64,000 nt of DNA from an uncultured Phascolarctobacterium sp. (lineage in GTDB: Bacteria > Bacillota > Negativicutes > Acidaminococcales > Acidaminococcaceae). Numbering within the stretch: the stretch's first letter is position 1; every line of letters begins with the position of its first letter. The notes under the pieces are model-generated. The model was not told the DNA's origin. It did no database searches and saw nothing but the letters and a program-made list of their open reading frames with translations. Location: assembly GCA_949288065.1 (NCBI GenBank), contig CASEIL010000002.1, positions 1-64,000 of the forward strand, in the 5' to 3' direction. Position numbers and translations under genes: made by a program. This document shows, in pieces, positions 17,099 to 25,721 of the stretch.

Positions 17099-18781
17099 AT
17101 GCTTCAGGCTTTACATGTCCACAATTTTGCTTTAATTGAAGATGCCAGAGTAGAATTTACAAAAGGTTTTAATGTTTTTACCGGCGAAACCGGCGCGGGT
17201 AAATCTATTTTGATTGACGCGTTCAGCATTGCGCTGGGCGCGAGGGCTTCGGCAGATTATGTGCGCAGCGGCACGGACGCTTTAACCGTGCAGGCGGTGT
17301 TTGATATTGAAAATTGCCCTGCCGCCATGAAGCTGTTGGAGGAGCAGGGCATTGATTATGAGGATGGGCTGTTTTTGCGCCGCCGCATAACCGCTGCCGG
17401 TAAAAGCCAGGCCAGCATTAACGGTATGCAGGTGCCGCTTGCGATTTTGCGCGCTTTTGCCGCCGTGCTGGTGGACGTGCACGGGCAGCACGAAAACCAG
17501 GCGCTGCTTAAGCAGGATTTTCCCCAGCAGCTGACGGATTTATACGGGCAGGCAGAAATTGCGCCTGTGCTTGAAGGCTACCACACAGCTTTTGCTGCCT
17601 ATAACAATGCCAAAGCGGAACTGGAACGCCTGCAGGGCATGGGGCAAGACCGCGAGCGCATTTTGGACAGACTGGAATGGGAGATTGAAGAAATTACCAA
17701 TGCCAATTTGCAGCAGGGCGAACTGGATGAATTGCATGAGGAATGGAAACGCCTGCAAAACAACGGCAAAATTATGCAGGCCGTCAGCGATGCCAACGAG
17801 CTTGTGGACGGCAAATACAGCGCGCTGGACGCTTTGGCGGAAGCCAGAAGCAAAATTGAAGGCGCGGCACGTTACGACAGCAGCCTTGCCGCTAACGCCG
17901 AACTTTTGGAAAGCTGCTGGCTGACGCTGGAAGAATGCCATAAGAATTTGCTGGATTATTTGGAAAACAACGAATTTGACGGCGAGCGCGCTGCCTATGT
18001 GGAGCAGCGGCTTGATTTGTGGTACCGCCTGCAAAAAAAATATGGCGCAGATTACGAGGCTATTGCTGCTTACCTGCATAAAGTGCAGCAGGAGGCGGAA
18101 GAGCTGCACGCCATTGACCGCAGCATTGAAGCAAAAACCAAAGAGCTGGCGCAAAAAACCAAAGAGCTTACTGCGCTTGCAGAGCAATTAACGGCGCTGC
18201 GCCAAAAATACGCGCAGCTTTTAACTAAGGAAATTACTGCACACATTGCCGATTTGGCAATGCCGCAGGGCAAAATAGAAATTAAATTTACGCCTAAAGA
18301 AACTTTCGGCAAAAACGGCTGCGACGATATGGTATTTTTGTTCTCTGCTAACGAGGGCGAGCCGCTTTTGGAATTATCGAAAGTAGCGTCCGGCGGCGAA
18401 TTATCGCGCATTGCGCTGGCAGTAAAAACAGTGCTGTTTAACGAGCTGGGCGTACCGACGATGATTTTTGATGAGATTGATACCGGCATCGGCGGCGTAA
18501 CAGCACAGAAAATGGCGGAAAAAATTGCCGTTATCGCCCGTAAGGGCCAGGTTATTTGCATTACACACCTGCCGCAAATTGCCAGCTTTGCTGACAGGCA
18601 CATAAAAATCAACAAGGTAAGCGCCGAGGGGCGCACGCATACACAGCTGGAGGCATTGGACGAAGCAGGGCGCATTGATGAACTGATGCGCATGACGGCA
18701 GGCGCCAGCACCAGCGAGGCGGCACGCCAGAACGCCGAGGAGCTTTTGGCAAACGCCGCGAAATTTAAAAATGCAAGGTGA
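17099..18781 (+). CDS. recN: DNA repair protein RecN
   Basis: 560 residues, an SMC-like ATPase acting early in double-strand break repair. Walker A is GETGAGKSILIDA (about residue 30), the signature motif is VASGGELSRIALA, Walker B is TMIFDEIDTGIGG, and the middle is a coiled coil of about 350 residues. No LexA-type operator was noticed upstream; it appears to be expressed from the operon. The next gene starts just after its end. Confidence 0.95.
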   Translation: MLQALHVHNFALIEDARVEFTKGFNVFTGETGAGKSILIDAFSIALGARASADYVRSGTDALTVQAVFDIENCPAAMKLLEEQGIDYEDGLFLRRRITAAGKSQASINGMQVPLAILRAFAAVLVDVHGQHENQALLKQDFPQQLTDLYGQAEIAPVLEGYHTAFAAYNNAKAELERLQGMGQDRERILDRLEWEIEEITNANLQQGELDELHEEWKRLQNNGKIMQAVSDANELVDGKYSALDALAEARSKIEGAARYDSSLAANAELLESCWLTLEECHKNLLDYLENNEFDGERAAYVEQRLDLWYRLQKKYGADYEAIAAYLHKVQQEAEELHAIDRSIEAKTKELAQKTKELTALAEQLTALRQKYAQLLTKEITAHIADLAMPQGKIEIKFTPKETFGKNGCDDMVFLFSANEGEPLLELSKVASGGELSRIALAVKTVLFNELGVPTMIFDEIDTGIGGVTAQKMAEKIAVIARKGQVICITHLPQIASFADRHIKINKVSAEGRTHTQLEALDEAGRIDELMRMTAGASTSEAARQNAEELLANAAKFKNAR

Positions 18782-18785
18782 AATT

Positions 18786-19349
18786 ATGAAAAAAATACAT
18801 CAGGCAAACCTTGATGAAAAATTTGTAAGCCGTAAACAGGGCTTTGACGGCAGGCTGCTGAAGGTGATGGTTGACACCGTAACGCTGCCTAACGGCAAAG
18901 AAACCACGCGCGAAATTATTGCCCACCCGGGCGCGGTGTGCGTGGTGCCGGTGCTGCCGGACGGAAGCATTATTTTTGTAAAGCAGTACCGCTACGCAGT
19001 TGGCAGCGTGCTGTATGAGCTGCCCGCAGGCAAGCTGGATAAGCCGGACGAGGATCCGCTGGACTGTGCTAAGCGCGAGCTTTCCGAAGAAACGGGCTAC
19101 ACGGCTAAGAGCTGGCAGAAGCTGACCAGCATTGTTACCACGCCTGGCTTTACGGATGAGGTAATTCATTTGTATGCAGCGACGGGGCTGGAAAAATTTA
19201 GCCAGCATTGTGACGAGGATGAGTTTATTGACATTGCCGTGCTGAAGCCGCAGGAAGTGCGCCAAATGCTTTTGAACGAAGAAATTTTTGACGCCAAAAC
19301 TTTAAGCGCGCTTTGTATGCTGCTTTTGCAGAACCCGCAGTTTATTTAA
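18786..19349 (+). CDS. Nudix hydrolase, ADP-ribose pyrophosphatase-like
   Basis: 187 residues from ATG 18786, which has AAGGTG at 18776-18781 upstream. The Nudix box is present around residue 78 (PAGKLDKPDEDPLDCAKREL then SEETGY), with one extra residue between the first glycine and first glutamate compared with the canonical spacing. The preceding strand VPVLPDGSIIFVKQYRYAV and overall length match ADP-ribose pyrophosphatases (NudF type). It ends the long operon. The sequence after it holds the displaced rib promoter. Confidence 0.88.
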   Translation: MKKIHQANLDEKFVSRKQGFDGRLLKVMVDTVTLPNGKETTREIIAHPGAVCVVPVLPDGSIIFVKQYRYAVGSVLYELPAGKLDKPDEDPLDCAKRELSEETGYTAKSWQKLTSIVTTPGFTDEVIHLYAATGLEKFSQHCDEDEFIDIAVLKPQEVRQMLLNEEIFDAKTLSALCMLLLQNPQFI

Positions 19350-19379: not shown

Positions 19380-19408
19380 TTGACAAATCTTTGCCAATGG
19401 TAGATACT
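19380..19408 (+). promoter_or_regulatory. Probable original promoter of the rib operon, now cut off
   Basis: TTGACA (19380-19385) and GATACT (19403-19408) are spaced by 17 bases. It reads straight into the truncated FMN aptamer copy at 19430. Before integration of the mobile element this would have placed the promoter about 20 bases upstream of the riboswitch and ribD. It now points into the element. Confidence 0.55.
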
Positions 19409-19429
19409 TATTGTAGTAATTTAATACAG

Positions 19430-19464
19430 GCCTTTGGGGTAGGGAGCATTTCCCAACCGGCGGT
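19430..19464 (+). repeat. Left attachment repeat (attL): truncated FMN aptamer copy
   Basis: A 35-base segment matches 24454-24488 at 31 positions. GCCTTTGGGGTAGGG is identical, then four bases differ (AGCA here, TTAG at the right), then TTTCCCAACCGGCGGT is identical. It contains the P1 5' strand and P2 hairpin of an FMN riboswitch, but the downstream sequence does not continue as an aptamer. Confidence 0.85.
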
Positions 19465-19757
19465 TGCCTGTCTGAAAATGTTAAACAAGACCAGCACTAT
19501 TAATTAACAGACTGTTGCCGTCTTGTTCCCAAAAGTCAACACTGTAAATCCAGTATACAAGCGGCTTTACAGGCTTTTCAATTTAATATTTTTGTAACTG
19601 AAGTAGTATTGAACTATAAAAAGTTTGATACTACTTTTTGTATTTTATGGCACCCTACCAAGTAGGTTAGTTTATTGATTTTTAATAAGCAATACCCAAC
19701 TATTTATACAAAATATAAGTATTACAAATAATATTAAACTGGAAGGAGGTGTAAAAC
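19465..19757. other. Left non-coding end of the element
   Basis: No gene. It contains an 8-bp inverted repeat AACAAGAC (19484-19491) with GTCTTGTT (19520-19527), the terminator at 19601-19641, and the short dyad CCTAC-CAA-GTAGG (19654-19666). The 7-mer CCCTACC at 19653-19659 is the reverse complement of GGTAGGG in the attachment repeat, so an integrase arm site is conceivable. A GGAAGGAGGTG site precedes the integrase. Confidence 0.4.
19601..19641 (+). terminator. Terminator at the left end of the element
   Basis: AAGTAGTATTGAAC (19601-19614) pairs with GTTTGATACTACTT (19623-19636), a 14-bp stem with two G-T pairs, followed by T-rich sequence. It should stop transcripts entering from the old rib promoter before they reach the integrase. 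Confidence 0.65.
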
Positions 19758-20675
19758 ATGCTGTATTATGAAGCCGTACAAATTTTTTATAGAGATTGTG
19801 TAGGGCGTATGTTGTCGGAGCGTACTATAGAAAACTATTCCGATTATATAACTGGCTTTGGAAATTACCTGCAAAGGGTAAATAAAAGCAATATTGAGGA
19901 TGTTACAAGGGATGATGTATTAGACTACTTTGCTTTTAAGCGTAAAACCTGTTCGGAAACTACAATAAAACATAACTTCATAGCTATCAGAGCGTGTTTC
20001 AAATGCCTTGTAGCCCGTCACATAATACCTATAAACCCTTTGGATGACATACCGAAACCACGAGTGCCCAAAAAGATAATACAATCTTTTAATAGGGAGG
20101 AAGTACAGGCAATACTAAACGCCTTTGATAAAAATACTTTTACAGGGTTTAGAAACTACGCAGTCATGAGCATTTTATTCAGCACAGGTTTAAGAAAAAG
20201 CGAGTTGCTGCAAATGAATGTTTCTGATGTGTATTTAGATATTGACACTATGAAAGTAAACGGAAAGGGCAATAAAGAGCGTTATGTACCCATTAGCCCC
20301 GTATTGCACCGTGTAATTGTTACATACTTAAAAAAGCGTAAAGAATATTTAAAAGAGTGCAAATTAGCCGATAGGGATATATTTATAGTAAGCTGTAGGG
20401 GCGGCAGGTTAACTAAAGGCGGTTTAGGTACTGTATTTGCTAAACTAAAGCAATCTAAAAAACAGTGGGCACACCGTGTATCAGCGCATACATGGCGGCA
20501 CACTTTTGCAAAATTCTTTTTGTTAAACGGCGGCGATATATTCTCATTACAAAAGATATTGGGGCACGAGGATATAGAGAGTACCCGTATTTATATTGAA
20601 CTGACAAAAGAGGAAATACGCCTGCAAAATGACAAATACAATCCATTAGATAACACAAAATGGCAATATTATTAA
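19758..20675 (+). CDS. Tyrosine recombinase (integrase)
   Basis: 305 residues. The N-terminal SAM-like core-binding domain spans about residues 1-100 and the catalytic domain about 110-290. All active-site residues are present: R146 in TGLRKSEL, the lysine in NGKGNKER (about 170-173), H244 and R247 in HTWRH, H270 in ILGHED and the nucleophile Y279 in TRIYIEL. A strong GGAAGGAGGTG site precedes ATG 19758. It resembles XerC/XerD-sized recombinases more than long phage integrases with arm-binding domains. Lying at the left end of an element flanked by direct repeats, it is the obvious enzyme for integration into and excision from the FMN riboswitch. Confidence 0.93.
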   Translation: MLYYEAVQIFYRDCVGRMLSERTIENYSDYITGFGNYLQRVNKSNIEDVTRDDVLDYFAFKRKTCSETTIKHNFIAIRACFKCLVARHIIPINPLDDIPKPRVPKKIIQSFNREEVQAILNAFDKNTFTGFRNYAVMSILFSTGLRKSELLQMNVSDVYLDIDTMKVNGKGNKERYVPISPVLHRVIVTYLKKRKEYLKECKLADRDIFIVSCRGGRLTKGGLGTVFAKLKQSKKQWAHRVSAHTWRHTFAKFFLLNGGDIFSLQKILGHEDIESTRIYIELTKEEIRLQNDKYNPLDNTKWQYY

Positions 20676-20697
20676 ACAATGAAAGAAGGATTTTTAA

Positions 20698-21453
20698 ATG
20701 TTATATTTGAATATTGATATTGAAAAAGAAGTTAATAAATTTCCGCTTAACGAGCGTCCTGTAATGATAACGGTTAACGGTGTAAACATACCACGGTATA
20801 GCTACAATATGATAGATATGCCGAAGGTAGAGCAAAGTTTACAAAACGGTGAATATACCTTTTGCAACATTATAAATGCCGTTGAGAATGAATATTATTT
20901 TACCGCTCGTGAATGTTTTTTAAAGCAAATACAGGAGCATGGTTTATCTGTTAATGAACAGTACAGACTTTTAGGTGAATGTATGGTAGCATTTAGGGCA
21001 ACTTCTGGCGGCAGCGGGGATATGTGCCATGACTTTGCTGTATACAGGGCGGCTCAGATACATAACGCTGAATTAGCTGCGCTGTTATGCAAAGGTACAA
21101 TAAGCGGAATTAATGATGTATACTGTTTAAGCAGTGATAAAAATATACTTTATTACCTTGATGACGGTAAAGATTATGACTGTTGTGTGTTCCGTGCAGA
21201 TTATGAAATTAGAGAATACAGCCGCCAAAACATTGATATTACAGCAAGTGTGTTTGATGAGTTACAGTATAAGTTTGAGGAACTGAGAAAATTTAATACA
21301 TTCGGTGAGTTGGCGCAGGAAGTACCTTTAAATTGCCTTGAAGAATACATACAGGAGGCTTTATGGGGCTATGTAGGCGAAGATAACCCAAATACTACGA
21401 TAAAGGTAGCACCAACAGCAGCACAGTATTTGCGGCATGAGGTACACAGTTAA
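20698..21453 (+). CDS. Unknown 251-residue element protein
   Basis: Not recognised. It starts 23 bases after the integrase with a GAAAGAAGGA site and is likely co-transcribed with it. The protein is acidic and soluble, with no membrane segment or signal. Three parts can be seen: a strand-rich N-terminus (VMITVNGVNIPRYSYN, then EYTFCNIINAVENEYYF), a central segment with a glycine/serine-rich turn followed by a helix (FRATSGGSGDMCHDFAVY), and a C-terminal helical part rich in glutamate (FDELQYKFEELRKF, LEEYIQEALWGYV). Eight or so cysteines are scattered without a metal-binding spacing. Possible roles such as excision, replication or defence are guesses. Confidence 0.75.
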   Translation: MLYLNIDIEKEVNKFPLNERPVMITVNGVNIPRYSYNMIDMPKVEQSLQNGEYTFCNIINAVENEYYFTARECFLKQIQEHGLSVNEQYRLLGECMVAFRATSGGSGDMCHDFAVYRAAQIHNAELAALLCKGTISGINDVYCLSSDKNILYYLDDGKDYDCCVFRADYEIREYSRQNIDITASVFDELQYKFEELRKFNTFGELAQEVPLNCLEEYIQEALWGYVGEDNPNTTIKVAPTAAQYLRHEVHS

Positions 21454-21516
21454 GTTGTGCCCCCCTTGATGTGCACAGTAAAGGCGGCTTTAATACACAA
21501 AGGCAAGGTGAATATA

Positions 21517-21591
21517 ATGCAGCGTTTTAAAAAGTTTGTGTACGAGGTTATAGATAATATTATAGCTATATTGGAATGGCTGAGGTTTTAG
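21517..21591 (+). CDS. Tiny 24-residue ORF
   Basis: ATG 21517 is preceded by AAGGTGAATATA, a good ribosome site at normal spacing. The peptide is short, basic at the N-terminus and amphipathic (MQRFKKFVYEVIDN then IIAILEWLRF). It overlaps the next ORF in another frame. The strong ribosome site is the main support; function unknown, possibly a leader or membrane-active peptide. Confidence 0.4.
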   Translation: MQRFKKFVYEVIDNIIAILEWLRF

Positions 21592-21758
21592 ATTTATACA
21601 TAACTTTTGTGTTGAACCTTTTGGTAAATATTTGTACCATTGCACTGATGTTAAGTACCAATCTTAAAATAAACACAAAAAAGCAAATGGGTACACAAAA
21701 AGCAGGTACAAAGTGCAGTAAAGTTTTGTGTTTTATAGGTAATACAAAAAATCAATAA
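21576..21758 (+). CDS. Possible 60-residue membrane protein
   Basis: One hydrophobic segment (YITFVLNLLVNICTIALML, residues about 8-26) is followed by a basic, polar tail. ATG 21576 lies within the 24-residue ORF in a different frame and lacks a clear ribosome site, so it would need coupled translation. The hydrophobic-then-basic layout is protein-like, but AT-rich DNA gives such segments by chance. Confidence 0.3.
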   Translation: MAEVLDLYITFVLNLLVNICTIALMLSTNLKINTKKQMGTQKAGTKCSKVLCFIGNTKNQ

Positions 21759-22154
21759 CACAATAGTACTTAATGCTGTTTTAGTATTGAGTTATATAGT
21801 AGCTAAGTAGTAACTATGAGTTTACACAAGTTACAGCAAAGGTGTGTTTTATTGATAGTGTTTTATAAAACAGATAAAAATTTAATAAAGGCAGTTTAAT
21901 GGCAACAAAAGTAACCACGGTATACCTGTTGATTTAATAATAACAAGTAAACCGTGGTTTTCTTTTTGTTACCTTTATGTGAATTTAAGGAAGGTTAAAG
22001 TATAATCATTAATAATTATCATTTATCAATCCTTAATTATAAAATTAAAGTAACTTTGTGTTTCTTATATATGTATTATTTATATAAGAAAGTCTGTAGA
22101 AGCAGGCACAGAGCAGGTGTATTTCTAAAAAGGGAAAAAAGCGGGGCTGAAATT
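21759..22154. other. Intergenic region between element genes
   Basis: No convincing gene. It contains the terminator at 21913-21968 and an AT-rich inverted repeat, TTTCTTATATA (22061-22071) with TATATAAGAAA (22081-22091), near the 3' end of the minus-strand helicase gene. Confidence 0.5.
21913..21968 (+). terminator. Terminator for the element's plus-strand genes
   Basis: AACCACGGT (21913-21921) pairs with ACCGTGGTT (21951-21959), followed by TTTCTTTTT. An inner TGTT/AACA pair may extend the stem. Confidence 0.75.
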
Positions 22155-23486
22155 TTACCCTTTTTTGTGTTCCTTTGCTGTATGTAGCCAAGACTTAAAT
22201 TGCATACGCAGGCGGTGTGCAGGTATGTATACGTACACTTTATTTGCACATGCCGTGTTGCGGATACTTGAACGCCACAAAAACTGTATAAAAGCAGATA
22301 AAGCGTACTCTTTTTTATTAACCGTTATGCCTCTTTTAGAAAAGAATGTAACGATATTAGGATTAGGAAATTTATCGCATACAAAAGCAACGGCATTACA
22401 GTTTATAAATTCGTTTGTGGCTCTTGTTGTGAGTGCTATCCAGCGTTTAGGGCTGACACCTCTACCAGTAAGGCAGTTTTTAAAATCCTTAAAGGTAGTC
22501 CAAAAGTAACCTGTAGTTTGCCCTTTGGGTACACCATAACGCAGAAAGCCACGCAAGGCGTTGTGCAGCTTACGGGCAGCAGTACTGTTTTTATTACTAC
22601 AATTCAATCTAAACCAGTTTTTAGATAGTGTGTAATCATCATCAATAAGATTATATTTATCATCATCACAAATAACAATTCTGTCTAATCCTTTTGGGTA
22701 TGCCTCAACAAAACCTGCTGCAATATCGCCGCCGCTGTTGATGTGGTAATACTCAATAGTAAAACCATACAGCCTGCAATAATAATCAAAATAACTCTCA
22801 TGCAGGCGGTATGTGCTGATGTACACATTATCAAAGCAATACCAAATAGAAGGTTTTACCACAGCAATAACCTGTTTATCGTTATTTATACTGTACAGGT
22901 CGAGATTATCAAAGCACTTACGGAAACCTTCAAACAGACCACGCCTGCATCGTCCTGTATATTCTTTATCATCATTCCAATAAAGCTGCCCTGTAGTTTC
23001 ATTCATCAACAAATAACCCTGCGCCCTCAGCATGGCATAGTCCTGCGGATTAAGTTTATTTAATTCCTGTAGTTCCCTGTTGGCAACATTTTTGGGAGTG
23101 TTTTGGTCAATACAATCCAATATTACAGTAGGCTCCTCATCAATAATTAGTGTATATTCGTAATCACCATTAGACAACAAGGCTTTAACTTCGCTGTCAA
23201 AAAGAGTACACAGGGCATGTGTACAGCAGATGTTTTCACCTGCAATGATGAGTTGTTTTAACTCATGCAGTTTTGATGTTCCCTTTTGGTCGCCTAAAGG
23301 CTGCATACAGTTTGTATTGGCACATATCCGCTGTACTTCTGAAAGTAGTGGAGTGAGTACCAAAAAGCGGTTAAAGTTATCGGCAGCAGATTGTGCAGCA
23401 TTTATCATTTTAATTAAAGCTGTTGTCTTTCCTGCGCCTGTTGGGGCGTCAATTACCTTAAAAGCGATATTTTCTTTTGTGTTCAT
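22155..23486 (-). CDS. SF2-type helicase/ATPase of the integrated element
   Basis: 443 residues from the ATG at 23486, chosen because GGAAGGAAAG lies just upstream; the frame is open 26 codons further. Walker A is APTGAGKT (residues 14-21), Walker B is LIIDEEP (113-119, DEE variant of DEAD/DEAH), and a motif VI-like QFLWRSSIRN lies at 401-410, preceded by LTTRATNEF. Together these indicate two RecA-like lobes of a superfamily 2 helicase. The middle, about residues 125-330, is specific and aromatic-rich with no known domain recognised. It faces the integrase operon and is read from the structured right end of the element. A role in the element's replication is plausible; defence is an alternative. 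Confidence 0.75.
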   Translation of the reverse strand: MNTKENIAFKVIDAPTGAGKTTALIKMINAAQSAADNFNRFLVLTPLLSEVQRICANTNCMQPLGDQKGTSKLHELKQLIIAGENICCTHALCTLFDSEVKALLSNGDYEYTLIIDEEPTVILDCIDQNTPKNVANRELQELNKLNPQDYAMLRAQGYLLMNETTGQLYWNDDKEYTGRCRRGLFEGFRKCFDNLDLYSINNDKQVIAVVKPSIWYCFDNVYISTYRLHESYFDYYCRLYGFTIEYYHINSGGDIAAGFVEAYPKGLDRIVICDDDKYNLIDDDYTLSKNWFRLNCSNKNSTAARKLHNALRGFLRYGVPKGQTTGYFWTTFKDFKNCLTGRGVSPKRWIALTTRATNEFINCNAVAFVCDKFPNPNIVTFFSKRGITVNKKEYALSAFIQFLWRSSIRNTACANKVYVYIPAHRLRMQFKSWLHTAKEHKKG

Positions 23487-23544
23487 TTTTCTTTCCTTCC
23501 TTTTCACTACACAAATTTGAAAGAAATGATGTACCTTTCCTTCA

Positions 23545-23585
23545 TAATGTGTGACAGTAAACATTTGTCTACTTATGAGTGACAG
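23545..23585. repeat. Two 13-base direct repeats upstream of the helicase gene
   Basis: TAATGTGTGACAG (23545-23557) and TTATGAGTGACAG (23573-23585) differ at two positions and lie 28 bases apart. They are 60-100 bases upstream of the helicase start, so they could be operators or iterons. Confidence 0.45.
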
Positions 23586-23830
23586 ATAAGGTTATTGTGC
23601 GTTTAAATTCGTTTTAAGCGTGTTTATAAATGAAAGCTTATAAAGTTATACACAAAAGATTTAAAAACGCTTACAGGCGAAATATGGCGGTGATGTATGT
23701 GGCGGCGAAGGGAGAATGTTATAGTATTGCGAGTTTTATGTAAATTATTAATGTTTATTTTATTATATTGATTAAATGGGTAATCAGCGTAGCAATACCA
23801 GTAAAGCAGTTTAACATTAAATATAAAACA

Positions 23831-23890
23831 ACCGCCTTTGCTGTAACTAATAGCACCAATAAGTAAACCAATAGTCAACGGCAAGGCGGC
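23831..23890. other. Long imperfect hairpin in the element
   Basis: ACCGCCTTTGCTGTAACTAA, starting at 23831, pairs with a segment ending at 23890 (CAACGGCAAGGCGGC and bases before it) over about 22 positions with a few mismatches, enclosing a loop of about 15 bases. There is no T run, so a terminator is unlikely. Confidence 0.5.
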
Positions 23891-24093
23891 TGAAAGTAAA
23901 TAAAAATAATAAAATTGATTGTGTATAAAAATATAAACATAAACCTTTGTTTGTATTTTAGCTATGCATAGATGTTGAAGTATGTGTGTAATCTTAAAAA
24001 GTATAATAAAAATAGTACACAAGTTTTCAACAAGTGTACTAAATGGAATTTTATGCAGTTGTTAATGAATAAAAACACAAAATAAAAGCAATA

Positions 24094-24121
24094 ACGTCCG
24101 ATAATAAGGATTATGTTTATC
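24094..24121 (+). other. dif-like XerC/XerD site in the element
   Basis: The 11-base left arm ACGTCCGATAA is identical to that of the chromosomal dif candidate at 49229. The centre is TAAGGA and the right arm TTATGTTTATC shares TTATGT with XerD arms in general. The 11-6-11 layout is that of dif sites. The centre differs from the chromosomal TATATA. Confidence 0.65.
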
Positions 24122-24363
24122 TTGTTTTAACCTCATTTTATGGCAGTTTTCTATAATAAAATAAAAAAGGAAAGCCTGACTATTACATTTGTTATTTACA
24201 GTATAAATAATACAATCCCGTGTGTCAACTTTTGTATCACATATAAAAATTTCAAAATAAAAAACAAAAAGCAGCAAAGTTTTAACAGAGAATTAGAAAC
24301 CAAACGGGGCAATGGGGAAACAATATTATTTCAAAGATATATATAAGGGCAAACGAAAATTTT

Positions 24364-24391
24364 TTGTAAAATTCACTTTTAAAGTTAATAT
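24364..24391 (+). promoter_or_regulatory. Candidate outward promoter supplying the rib operon
   Basis: TTGTAA (24364-24369) and TAATAT (24386-24391) with a 16-base spacer lie inside the element, about 60 bases upstream of the rebuilt FMN aptamer. It would replace the promoter stranded at 19380. Confidence 0.5.
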
Positions 24392-24453
24392 ATTAAATTG
24401 ATAAATGCCTTAAAGTGCGCAAATATGCAGTATTGCTGACTTTTTGGTGTTTA

Positions 24454-24488
24454 GCCTTTGGGGTAGGGTTAGTTTCCCAACCGGCGGT
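24454..24488 (+). repeat. Right attachment repeat (attR), within the intact FMN aptamer
   Basis: Matches 19430-19464 at 31 of 35 positions; the four differing bases (TTAG here) fall in the loop of the P2 hairpin. The repeat ends within the conserved ACCGGCGGT of the aptamer. Confidence 0.85.
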
Positions 24489-24558
24489 ATAGTCCGCGAG
24501 CGTAAGCACGAACCGGTGCAATTCCGGTACCGACAGTATAGTCTGGATGAGAAAAGGC
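24454..24558 (+). ncRNA. FMN riboswitch (RFN element) controlling ribD-ribE-ribBA-ribH
   Basis: Conserved aptamer blocks occur in order: GGGGTAGGG, CCCAACCGGCGGTA, AGTCCGCGAGC, ACCGGTGCAATTCCGGTACC, then CGACAGTATAGTCTGGATGA. The closing stem P1 is GCCTTT (24454-24459) with AAAGGC (24553-24558). A terminator hairpin follows at 24574, so FMN binding should stop transcription before ribD. The 5' part of the aptamer is also the right attachment repeat of the mobile element, so some of these bases were probably supplied by the element. Confidence 0.95.
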
Positions 24559-24573
24559 AGCAAAATGATGTTT

Positions 24574-24612
24574 ACAGCCATAACCCCCGGAGGTTGTGGC
24601 TGTTTTGTTTGT
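24574..24612 (+). terminator. Riboswitch-controlled terminator before ribD
   Basis: ACAGCCA (24574-24580) pairs with TGGCTGT (24597-24603), extended inward by TAACC with GGTTG, loop CCCGGA, followed by TTTTGTTT. It is placed between aptamer and start codon. Confidence 0.85.
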
Positions 24613-24626
24613 AAGAAGGTGAATAT

Positions 24627-25721
24627 ATGGACGATATTAAATTTATGCGGCGCGCGCTGGAACTGGCGCAGCTGGCAGAGGGCGATACCAGCCCGAACCC
24701 GATGGTGGGCGCGGTAATTGTTGATGACGATGGCAATATCGTCGGCGAAGGTTACCACCACAAAGCCGGGCAGCCGCACGCGGAGATTAATGCTTTAGCG
24801 GCGGCAGGCGCAAAGGCGAAGGGCGCAACCATTTACGTTACGCTGGAGCCTTGTTCCCACTATGGCAGGACGGGCCCGTGCTGCGAGGCGCTGATTAAGG
24901 CAGGCGTAAAACGTGTTGTCAGCGCCGTTACCGACCCGAACCCGCTGGTGGCAGGACGCGGTTTAAATCGTCTGCGCGAGGCCGGCATTGAGGTTACGGA
25001 GCACGTTTGCGAGGACGAAGCGCGCAAGTTAAACGAAAAGTTTTTCTTCTGGATTACGCATAAACGCCCGTTTGTATCGCTTAAATACGCCATGACGCTG
25101 GACGGCAGGCTTGCCGCTGCGGGCGGTGATTCCAAGTGGATTACGGGCACGGAAGCACGCACTTACGCACATTATCTGCGTAAAGCGCACGACGCTGTGC
25201 TGGTTGGCAAAAACACCGTGCTGCGCGACGATTGCGAGCTTACCACGCGCATGGTGGAAGGTAAAAATCCTATCCGCATTGTGCTGGACAGCAAGGCAGC
25301 AATTCCGCTGAGTGCCAAAATCTTAAACGGCGAAGCGCAAACAATCATCTGCGTAAGCAAGGGCGCGCCGCAGGAGAAGCTGGCAGCTTTGCAGGGCTTA
25401 AAGAATGTGGAAGTGCTGACGCTGCCGGAAACCGGCGGCAAACTTGATTTGAACGCGCTTATGCAGGAGTTAGCTGCTAAGGAAATAACCAGCGTGCTGG
25501 TGGAAGGCGGCAGCGAGGTGCACGGTGCGTTTATGGACGCCGGGCTTGGCGAAAGAGTGTATGCGTTTATAGCGCCGAAAATTATTGGCGGCGCAAACGC
25601 TATTGGACCGGTAGGCGGCGCAAGCAAAACGGATATGGCGCAGGCGCTGAAGCTGCACGATGTTGATTGCAAACAGCTGGGCGCAGATTTTTTGATTACC
25701 GGCAGAACGGAGCGTGATTGA
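24627..25721 (+). CDS. ribD: Riboflavin biosynthesis deaminase/reductase
   Basis: 364 residues. The N-terminal zinc deaminase (HAEINAL, then PCSHYGRTGPC) and the C-terminal reductase (FVSLKYAMTLDGRLA, then WITGTEARTYAHYLR and VEGGSEVHGAFMDAGL) carry out steps two and three of riboflavin synthesis from GTP. The length is standard. AGAAGGTGAATAT precedes ATG 24627. It is the first gene of the FMN-riboswitch operon, and ribE starts two bases after its stop. Confidence 0.96.
   Translation: MDDIKFMRRALELAQLAEGDTSPNPMVGAVIVDDDGNIVGEGYHHKAGQPHAEINALAAAGAKAKGATIYVTLEPCSHYGRTGPCCEALIKAGVKRVVSAVTDPNPLVAGRGLNRLREAGIEVTEHVCEDEARKLNEKFFFWITHKRPFVSLKYAMTLDGRLAAAGGDSKWITGTEARTYAHYLRKAHDAVLVGKNTVLRDDCELTTRMVEGKNPIRIVLDSKAAIPLSAKILNGEAQTIICVSKGAPQEKLAALQGLKNVEVLTLPETGGKLDLNALMQELAAKEITSVLVEGGSEVHGAFMDAGLGERVYAFIAPKIIGGANAIGPVGGASKTDMAQALKLHDVDCKQLGADFLITGRTERD

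Follow-up and report, generated by a model that had tools for sequence, protein, structure and literature searches.

Background

Tyrosine integrases favour tRNA genes, in which a 7-bp loop between inverted stems matches the core site (PMC8371274). The islands usually found in such genes restore their target, are bordered by direct repeats and typically supply the 3′ part of the gene on the integrase side, with the original promoter kept. Integration at the 5′-distal side of a tRNA gene is rare, according to the passages of PMC8371274 and PMC6563490 that cite Zhao and Williams 2002 and Cossu 2017; in these passages the 5′-distal integrators, such as the archaeal pTN3-type elements, use the 5′ half of an RNA gene for attachment and supply a promoter and a 5′ half, and the targets reported are tRNA genes only. 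Protein genes are treated in a comparable way by SXT in prfC and by dusA-specific elements such as IMEVchUSA3: with a tyrosine integrase, they insert at the 5′ end of the conserved gene and equip it with a replacement 5′ part and promoter of their own (PMC8409611). A riboswitch has also served as an integration site: the part of PMC10117131 that concerns it places an Enterococcus cecorum prophage in a preQ1 riboswitch, where it likely alters downstream expression, and describes no rebuilding of the riboswitch.

Here we analyse a window, by which we mean the whole stretch of 64,000 nucleotides under study, from the 1.83-Mb draft genome (G000) of an uncultured member of the genus Phascolarctobacterium. 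We consider it very likely that the FMN riboswitch in this window harbours a small integrative element, that FMN aptamer DNA is the chromosomal attachment site for the XerC/D-type tyrosine recombinase of this element, and that the account given below holds as a whole. Such an element would share with the usual tRNA-gene islands the type of integrase, a core of a 7-bp loop with inverted arms, the restoration of the target and the direct repeats, but would supply the 5′ part instead of the 3′ part. In this respect it resembles the SXT and dusA elements; however, these are much larger and are mobilizable or conjugative, and they enter a protein gene; in the present case, the structure to be restored is that of a cis-regulatory RNA. 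It would differ from the 5′-distal tRNA integrators, as far as the passages cited above describe them, in that the targets are an FMN riboswitch and, in related elements, the RNase P RNA gene rnpB. Among open-licence papers we found none that reports an element with an FMN riboswitch as the target that it rebuilds, or a comparable use of rnpB, and we regard the novelty as provisional; the original prediction, which knew of no element directed at an FMN riboswitch, stands to that extent, but the preQ1 prophage, as described in part of its source, is a precedent for riboswitches as targets.

The locus and its two aptamer copies

The sequence at 19430-19464 recurs at 24454 with 31 of 35 bases identical, which is its top match elsewhere in the window. 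The runner-up reaches 23 of 35 and the maxima in 20 shuffled windows were 19-25, which rules out a chance origin of the repeat. The 5,024-bp segment between the copies has a GC content of 34.2%, against 52-53% in both flanks, and encodes a full-length tyrosine recombinase with the R-K-H-R-H-Y catalytic set (R146, K170, H244, R247, H270 and Y279) and a structure match to XerD (2.5e-23; features in Table 1). The right copy belongs to an aptamer that spans positions 1-138 of the RF00050 covariance model with the full consensus structure and exceeds the gathering threshold of 66.2 bits; it is the sole FMN aptamer in the genome, and is followed by a terminator and then ribD-ribE. These data bear out the original prediction of an AT-rich, recombinase-encoding segment between two repeats, the right one being the 5′ part of a full FMN aptamer before ribD. 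The left copy scores 15.5 bits, under the gathering threshold, and is predicted from its sequence to be non-functional as an aptamer. We also considered a decayed full-length aptamer on the left side of the window, and rejected it: past GGCGGT, the alignment is non-significant when taken alone (z about 1).

Table 1. Features of the insertion locus, in window coordinates
Feature	Position	Strand	Evidence or remark
Nudix hydrolase gene (host; left flank of insertion)	18771..19349	+	PF00293 1.6e-16
Original rib promoter, TTGACA-17-GATACT	19380..19408	+	now separated from ribD
Left, stranded 5′ part of aptamer (P1 strand, P2 hairpin, J2/3)	19426..19464	+	31/35 to right copy
Element left end	19465..19580	+	homologous to G003 element end from about 19500
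Terminator-like hairpin between left copy and integrase gene	19600..19637	+	-17.1 kcal/mol
Tyrosine recombinase, 305 aa	19758..20675	+	PF00589 5e-32; phrog_1 3e-50
ORF, 251 aa, no family assigned	20698..21453	+	81% identity to G003 element ORF
YonV-like DEAD/ResIII-type ATPase gene	22155..23486	-	phrog_2467 2.7e-47
Element right end	24387..24449	+	homologous to G003 element up to P1 outer base
Complete FMN aptamer (right copy)	24450..24562	+	RF00050 100.1 bits
P1 5′ strand and P2 5′ half of rebuilt aptamer	24454..24468	+	probably element-supplied, from L2 loop switch
Intrinsic terminator of riboswitch expression platform (host)	24574..24603	+	
ribD, rib operon gene 1	24627..25721	+	TIGR00326 1.5e-124

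Empty sites in related genomes

Four congeners (G001, G002, G004 and G005) contain a single aptamer, which precedes the rib genes and scores 100.7-109.2 bits, and no element. In G002, G004 and G005 the same Nudix gene and a rib promoter of the same arrangement as in the window lie immediately 5′ of this aptamer. Element-free relatives thus show the order anticipated at the outset, Nudix gene, rib promoter, one aptamer and ribD, and in none of the four are both repeats present in the absence of the element; an ancestral double riboswitch was rejected on this count. To reconstruct the empty site we cut the window at the repeat, joined the flanks and aligned the product to the congeners: it matches G004 with 226/261 identities and a gapless join, and in G001 about 50 bp around the join are identical. 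The L2 loop of the empty G001 site, TTAGTTT, is that of the right copy (24469-24475) and differs from the AGCATTT of the left copy (19445-19451). From this loop to its 3′ end, the right copy is best read as host sequence.

A second insertion in the same genus

The nearest other carrier of the element is G003, also an uncultured Phascolarctobacterium, in which an integrase 84% identical to that of the window lies at the same locus between two aptamer copies. The two elements have three genes in common, in identical order. The right copy in G003 is a complete aptamer (102.4 bits). The left copy follows the native sequence from the promoter up to GAACCGGTGC in L5, with about 1 mismatch in 80 bases; past GAACCGGTGC it is diverged yet significantly similar to the aptamer (z 6-7, against about 1 past the left copy of the window), so that the counterpart of window positions 19465-19580 is a decayed 3′ aptamer. 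The left copy has lost conserved segments such as GGAUG and scores 41.1 bits, under the gathering threshold. The idea that the left repeat stops after the 5′ part of the aptamer consequently fits the window but not G003, whose stranded copy is far longer and reaches L5.

At the right end of the G003 element, 5′ of the right copy, we observed TTGACA...GGTAGATACTTAT. The 13-mer GGTAGATACTTAT is found once, at the native rib promoter, in each of G000, G002, G004 and G005, and is absent from G001; G003 is the only one of the six genomes in which it is present twice, the second time within the right end of the element. This second occurrence marks a diverged rib promoter copy as part of the G003 element. 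The original prediction, which spoke of the aptamer only, is to be amended accordingly: as read from its sequence, the G003 element brings a promoter copied from rib as well. The host genes of G003 are about 93-95% identical to those of the empty G002, G004 and G005 and about 82% identical to those of G000, and this grouping with empty relatives, together with the nearly unmutated stranded copy, shows that the G003 insertion is recent and separate. The FMN-riboswitch insertions that we found therefore number two, from one genus, both in genomes that are apparently metagenome assemblies. A pattern search of 398 genomes of the phylum gave some further double matches (G605, G640, G401); the stretches examined around them contain no related integrase, and we therefore take them to be separate riboswitches.

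The two promoters and two near-complete aptamer copies of G003 could also be explained if the riboswitch and its promoter had been duplicated in tandem first, and an unrelated element had landed between the copies later. We regard this as very unlikely, given that two copies are found in none of the four empty congeners, that the joined flanks of the window give a gapless empty site, that in the left copies native sequence abruptly gives way to diverged sequence, each time at a hairpin loop but not at the same one in the two genomes, and that integrases of the same clade lie at the borders of RNA genes in 13 of 13 cases (see below).

Crossover and the rebuilt riboswitch

Comparison of occupied and empty sites shows that attachment takes place in the aptamer DNA of the FMN riboswitch, as had been proposed; the separate insertion in G003 and the location of all integrase relatives at structured RNAs point the same way. 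In the window, the loop switch suggests strand exchange at the P2/L2 hairpin, in which inverted arms enclose a 7-base loop; the L2 loops of the two copies differ at four of seven bases, so that the position given for the crossover within the repeat is approximate. On the left, the junction would then consist of host sequence (promoter, P1 strand and P2 half); on the right, it would join the P1 strand and P2 half of the element to the host aptamer. Since the element ends in a P1 strand and P2 half, the distal junction recreates a complete aptamer before ribD, and with a complete aptamer in place the rib operon would be expected to stay FMN-regulated. That the element rebuilds the aptamer, as originally suggested, agrees at the level of sequence with the scores of both right copies, which are like those of empty sites. 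The G003 element brings at this end its rib promoter copy as well, and a longer portion of the aptamer.

A new promoter at the distal end is clear in G003 and in a tRNA-associated element of G062; the right end of the window element has only weak promoter-like matches and lacks the promoter block of G003. It could be argued from this that the insertion is real but that the mimic is a recombination core only, which part of it simply is, so that the riboswitch, intact as a mere side effect, lacks a promoter or is mis-regulated. We consider this unlikely, because the aptamer-like end stops at the P1 outer base in both elements, a rib-type promoter is present in the G003 element, both rebuilt aptamers score like empty-site ones, and the genome has no other FMN riboswitch.

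In the account that we favour, in which the element restores the riboswitch, the left copy keeps the old rib promoter, which now faces the integrase gene with a terminator-like hairpin in between. A corresponding hairpin (-18.7 kcal/mol), with another stem sequence, is present in the G003 element. A rib promoter facing the integrase, a terminator-like hairpin between the two in both elements and the 41 bits retained by the G003 left copy would suit a hybrid leader that works as a regulator and makes integrase expression depend on flavin status or on the activity of the rib promoter. The loss of GGAUG and other conserved segments in G003 and the low score of the window copy, on the other hand, make FMN binding by the left copies unlikely, and we judge a regulatory role of this kind very unlikely.

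The L2 and L5 loops of the FMN aptamer are T-loops (PMC3764141, PMC2258182), and the corresponding DNA here takes the form GGG-7-CCC and CCGG-7-CCGG, respectively. The FMN aptamer is probably a target because the DNA of these hairpins resembles the 7-base-loop hairpins of tRNA genes. The breakpoint lies at the L2 hairpin in the window and at the L5 hairpin in G003, although the G003 breakpoint may be at L2 instead; in these two cases, breakpoints thus appear to fall at the T-loop hairpins.

Integrase relatives and their RNA-gene targets

From 380 Negativicutes genomes, with an E-value limit of 1e-50, we retrieved 13 integrases, two each from G000 and G042. Visualized as a tree, all 13 form one clade (support 100/100), within which the FMN-riboswitch integrases are sister to the tRNA-Gln/Glu and tRNA-Ser integrases (81/94). 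Every member lies in or adjoins a structured-RNA gene: nine are at tRNA genes (eight assigned by Rfam and ARAGORN, the ninth, in G100, read by eye), two at rnpB and two at FMN riboswitches.

The layout of the window clearly recurs in one rnpB case and one tRNA case. In G001, an identical repeat of 107 bp, made up of the promoter and 5′ rnpB sequence, borders a 10.8-kb segment; the rnpB copy next to the integrase is truncated, whereas that at the distal end is complete (302.6 bits). In G062, tRNA-Gln stands with a broken, decayed tRNA-Glu on the integrase side; on the distal side both tRNAs are complete and follow a new TTGACA-18-TATACT promoter. In the second rnpB case (G000:C20) the repeat is 99 bp, and in G100 the integrase side retains only the 5′ half of a tRNA-Gly, up to the anticodon stem. 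The most distant member, in G248 (34% identity), has the ordinary layout, with a 3′ repeat from the anticodon loop on.

From these observations we tentatively propose, as an idea to which we give somewhat less than even chances, that an integrase lineage recognising tRNA-type hairpin DNA, with 7-base loops and inverted arms, moved from tRNA genes to the two T-loop hairpins of the FMN aptamer and to RNase P RNA, in its 5′ domain, and that its elements capture the promoter and 5′ RNA domain of the target, rebuilding the essential RNA at the distal end, with decay of the unused 3′ mimic on the integrase side. With the elements described here, target-restoring integration, known for tRNA genes and protein genes, extends to a metabolite-sensing riboswitch and RNase P RNA, with an apparent capture by the element of the target's own promoter and a concrete reason for RNAs with tRNA-like T-loops to serve as attachment sites. 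The pattern also suggests how to search for small elements overlooked by island finders that rely on tRNA genes, and cautions that the promoter of a riboswitch can be element-borne and differ between strains.

Gene content of the element

The window element may still be mobile. We found no relaxase or conjugation genes among its scanned ORFs with Pfam, PHROG and NCBIfam, and no phage structural, packaging or capsid-interference genes, PHROG recognising only the integrase and the phrog_2467 ATPase; the element may nonetheless be a phage satellite with genes of unrecognised families. Searches of viral contigs for the integrase, the ATPase and the att pattern gave nothing, and no excised circle or attP was seen there. 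The 251-aa ORF has no match in Pfam, PHROG, PADLOC or NCBIfam. A YonV-like ATPase is common to both FMN-riboswitch elements, both of those in rnpB and two of those at tRNA genes, which therefore look like one small-element family. The ATPase of the window, whose gene start we set by that of its G003 homologue, is 72% identical to the G003 counterpart and 30% identical to SPbeta yonV, and has plasmid homologues too.

Related insertions in rnpB and at tRNA genes

The window's own genome contains a second integrase, sister to that of the window element (43% identity), which is located within the RNase P RNA gene, rnpB. The far-side rnpB of this element scores 78 bits and lacks about 200 internal bases, which were not found elsewhere in the assembly of that genome; either the assembly is at fault here or the RNase P RNA gene is broken. 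AAGAGGAAAGTCCGG occurs twice in degenerate form just within the right end of the element; these copies may be former attachment sites or sites bound by the integrase.

The RNase P RNA gene of a congener, G001, holds a 10.8-kb element, whose identical 107-bp repeats comprise the promoter and 5' rnpB and whose far rnpB copy is complete. The repeats of the rnpB elements are identical within each genome and different between genomes, which suggests recency or homogenisation.

Related integrases at tRNA genes include those of the Negativicutes genomes G062 and G100. The 5.3-kb element of G062 lies in a tRNA-Gln/tRNA-Glu operon; the near tRNA-Glu is decayed, and the far operon is complete and has a new promoter. 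In G100 the tRNA-Gly before the integrase breaks off at the anticodon stem, leaving just its 5' half, and the remainder of the contig yielded no far copy.

Left end of the window element

The left aptamer copy, together with the ACAGGC/GCCTGT that encloses it, folds into one long hairpin; this extended dyad surrounds the presumed crossover. A terminator-like hairpin stands upstream of the integrase gene; its counterpart in the element of the congener G003 is equally stable with a different stem sequence, which suggests conserved control of integrase expression.

Coordinates of the features (G, genome; C, contig; L, extracted locus)
Feature	Location
rnpB with second integrase, window's genome (G000:C20)	L067:6440-6538; L099, G000:C20 about 17860-18051
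Degenerate AAGAGGAAAGTCCGG copies	L087, G000:C20, right end of the rnpB element
rnpB with element, G001:C6	L068:5537-5643; L100:3380-3486
tRNA-Gln/tRNA-Glu operon with element, G062	L101:2967-8464
tRNA-Gly 5' half, G100	L104:5150-5420
Left aptamer copy with ACAGGC/GCCTGT	window 19426-19472
Terminator-like hairpin	window 19600-19637
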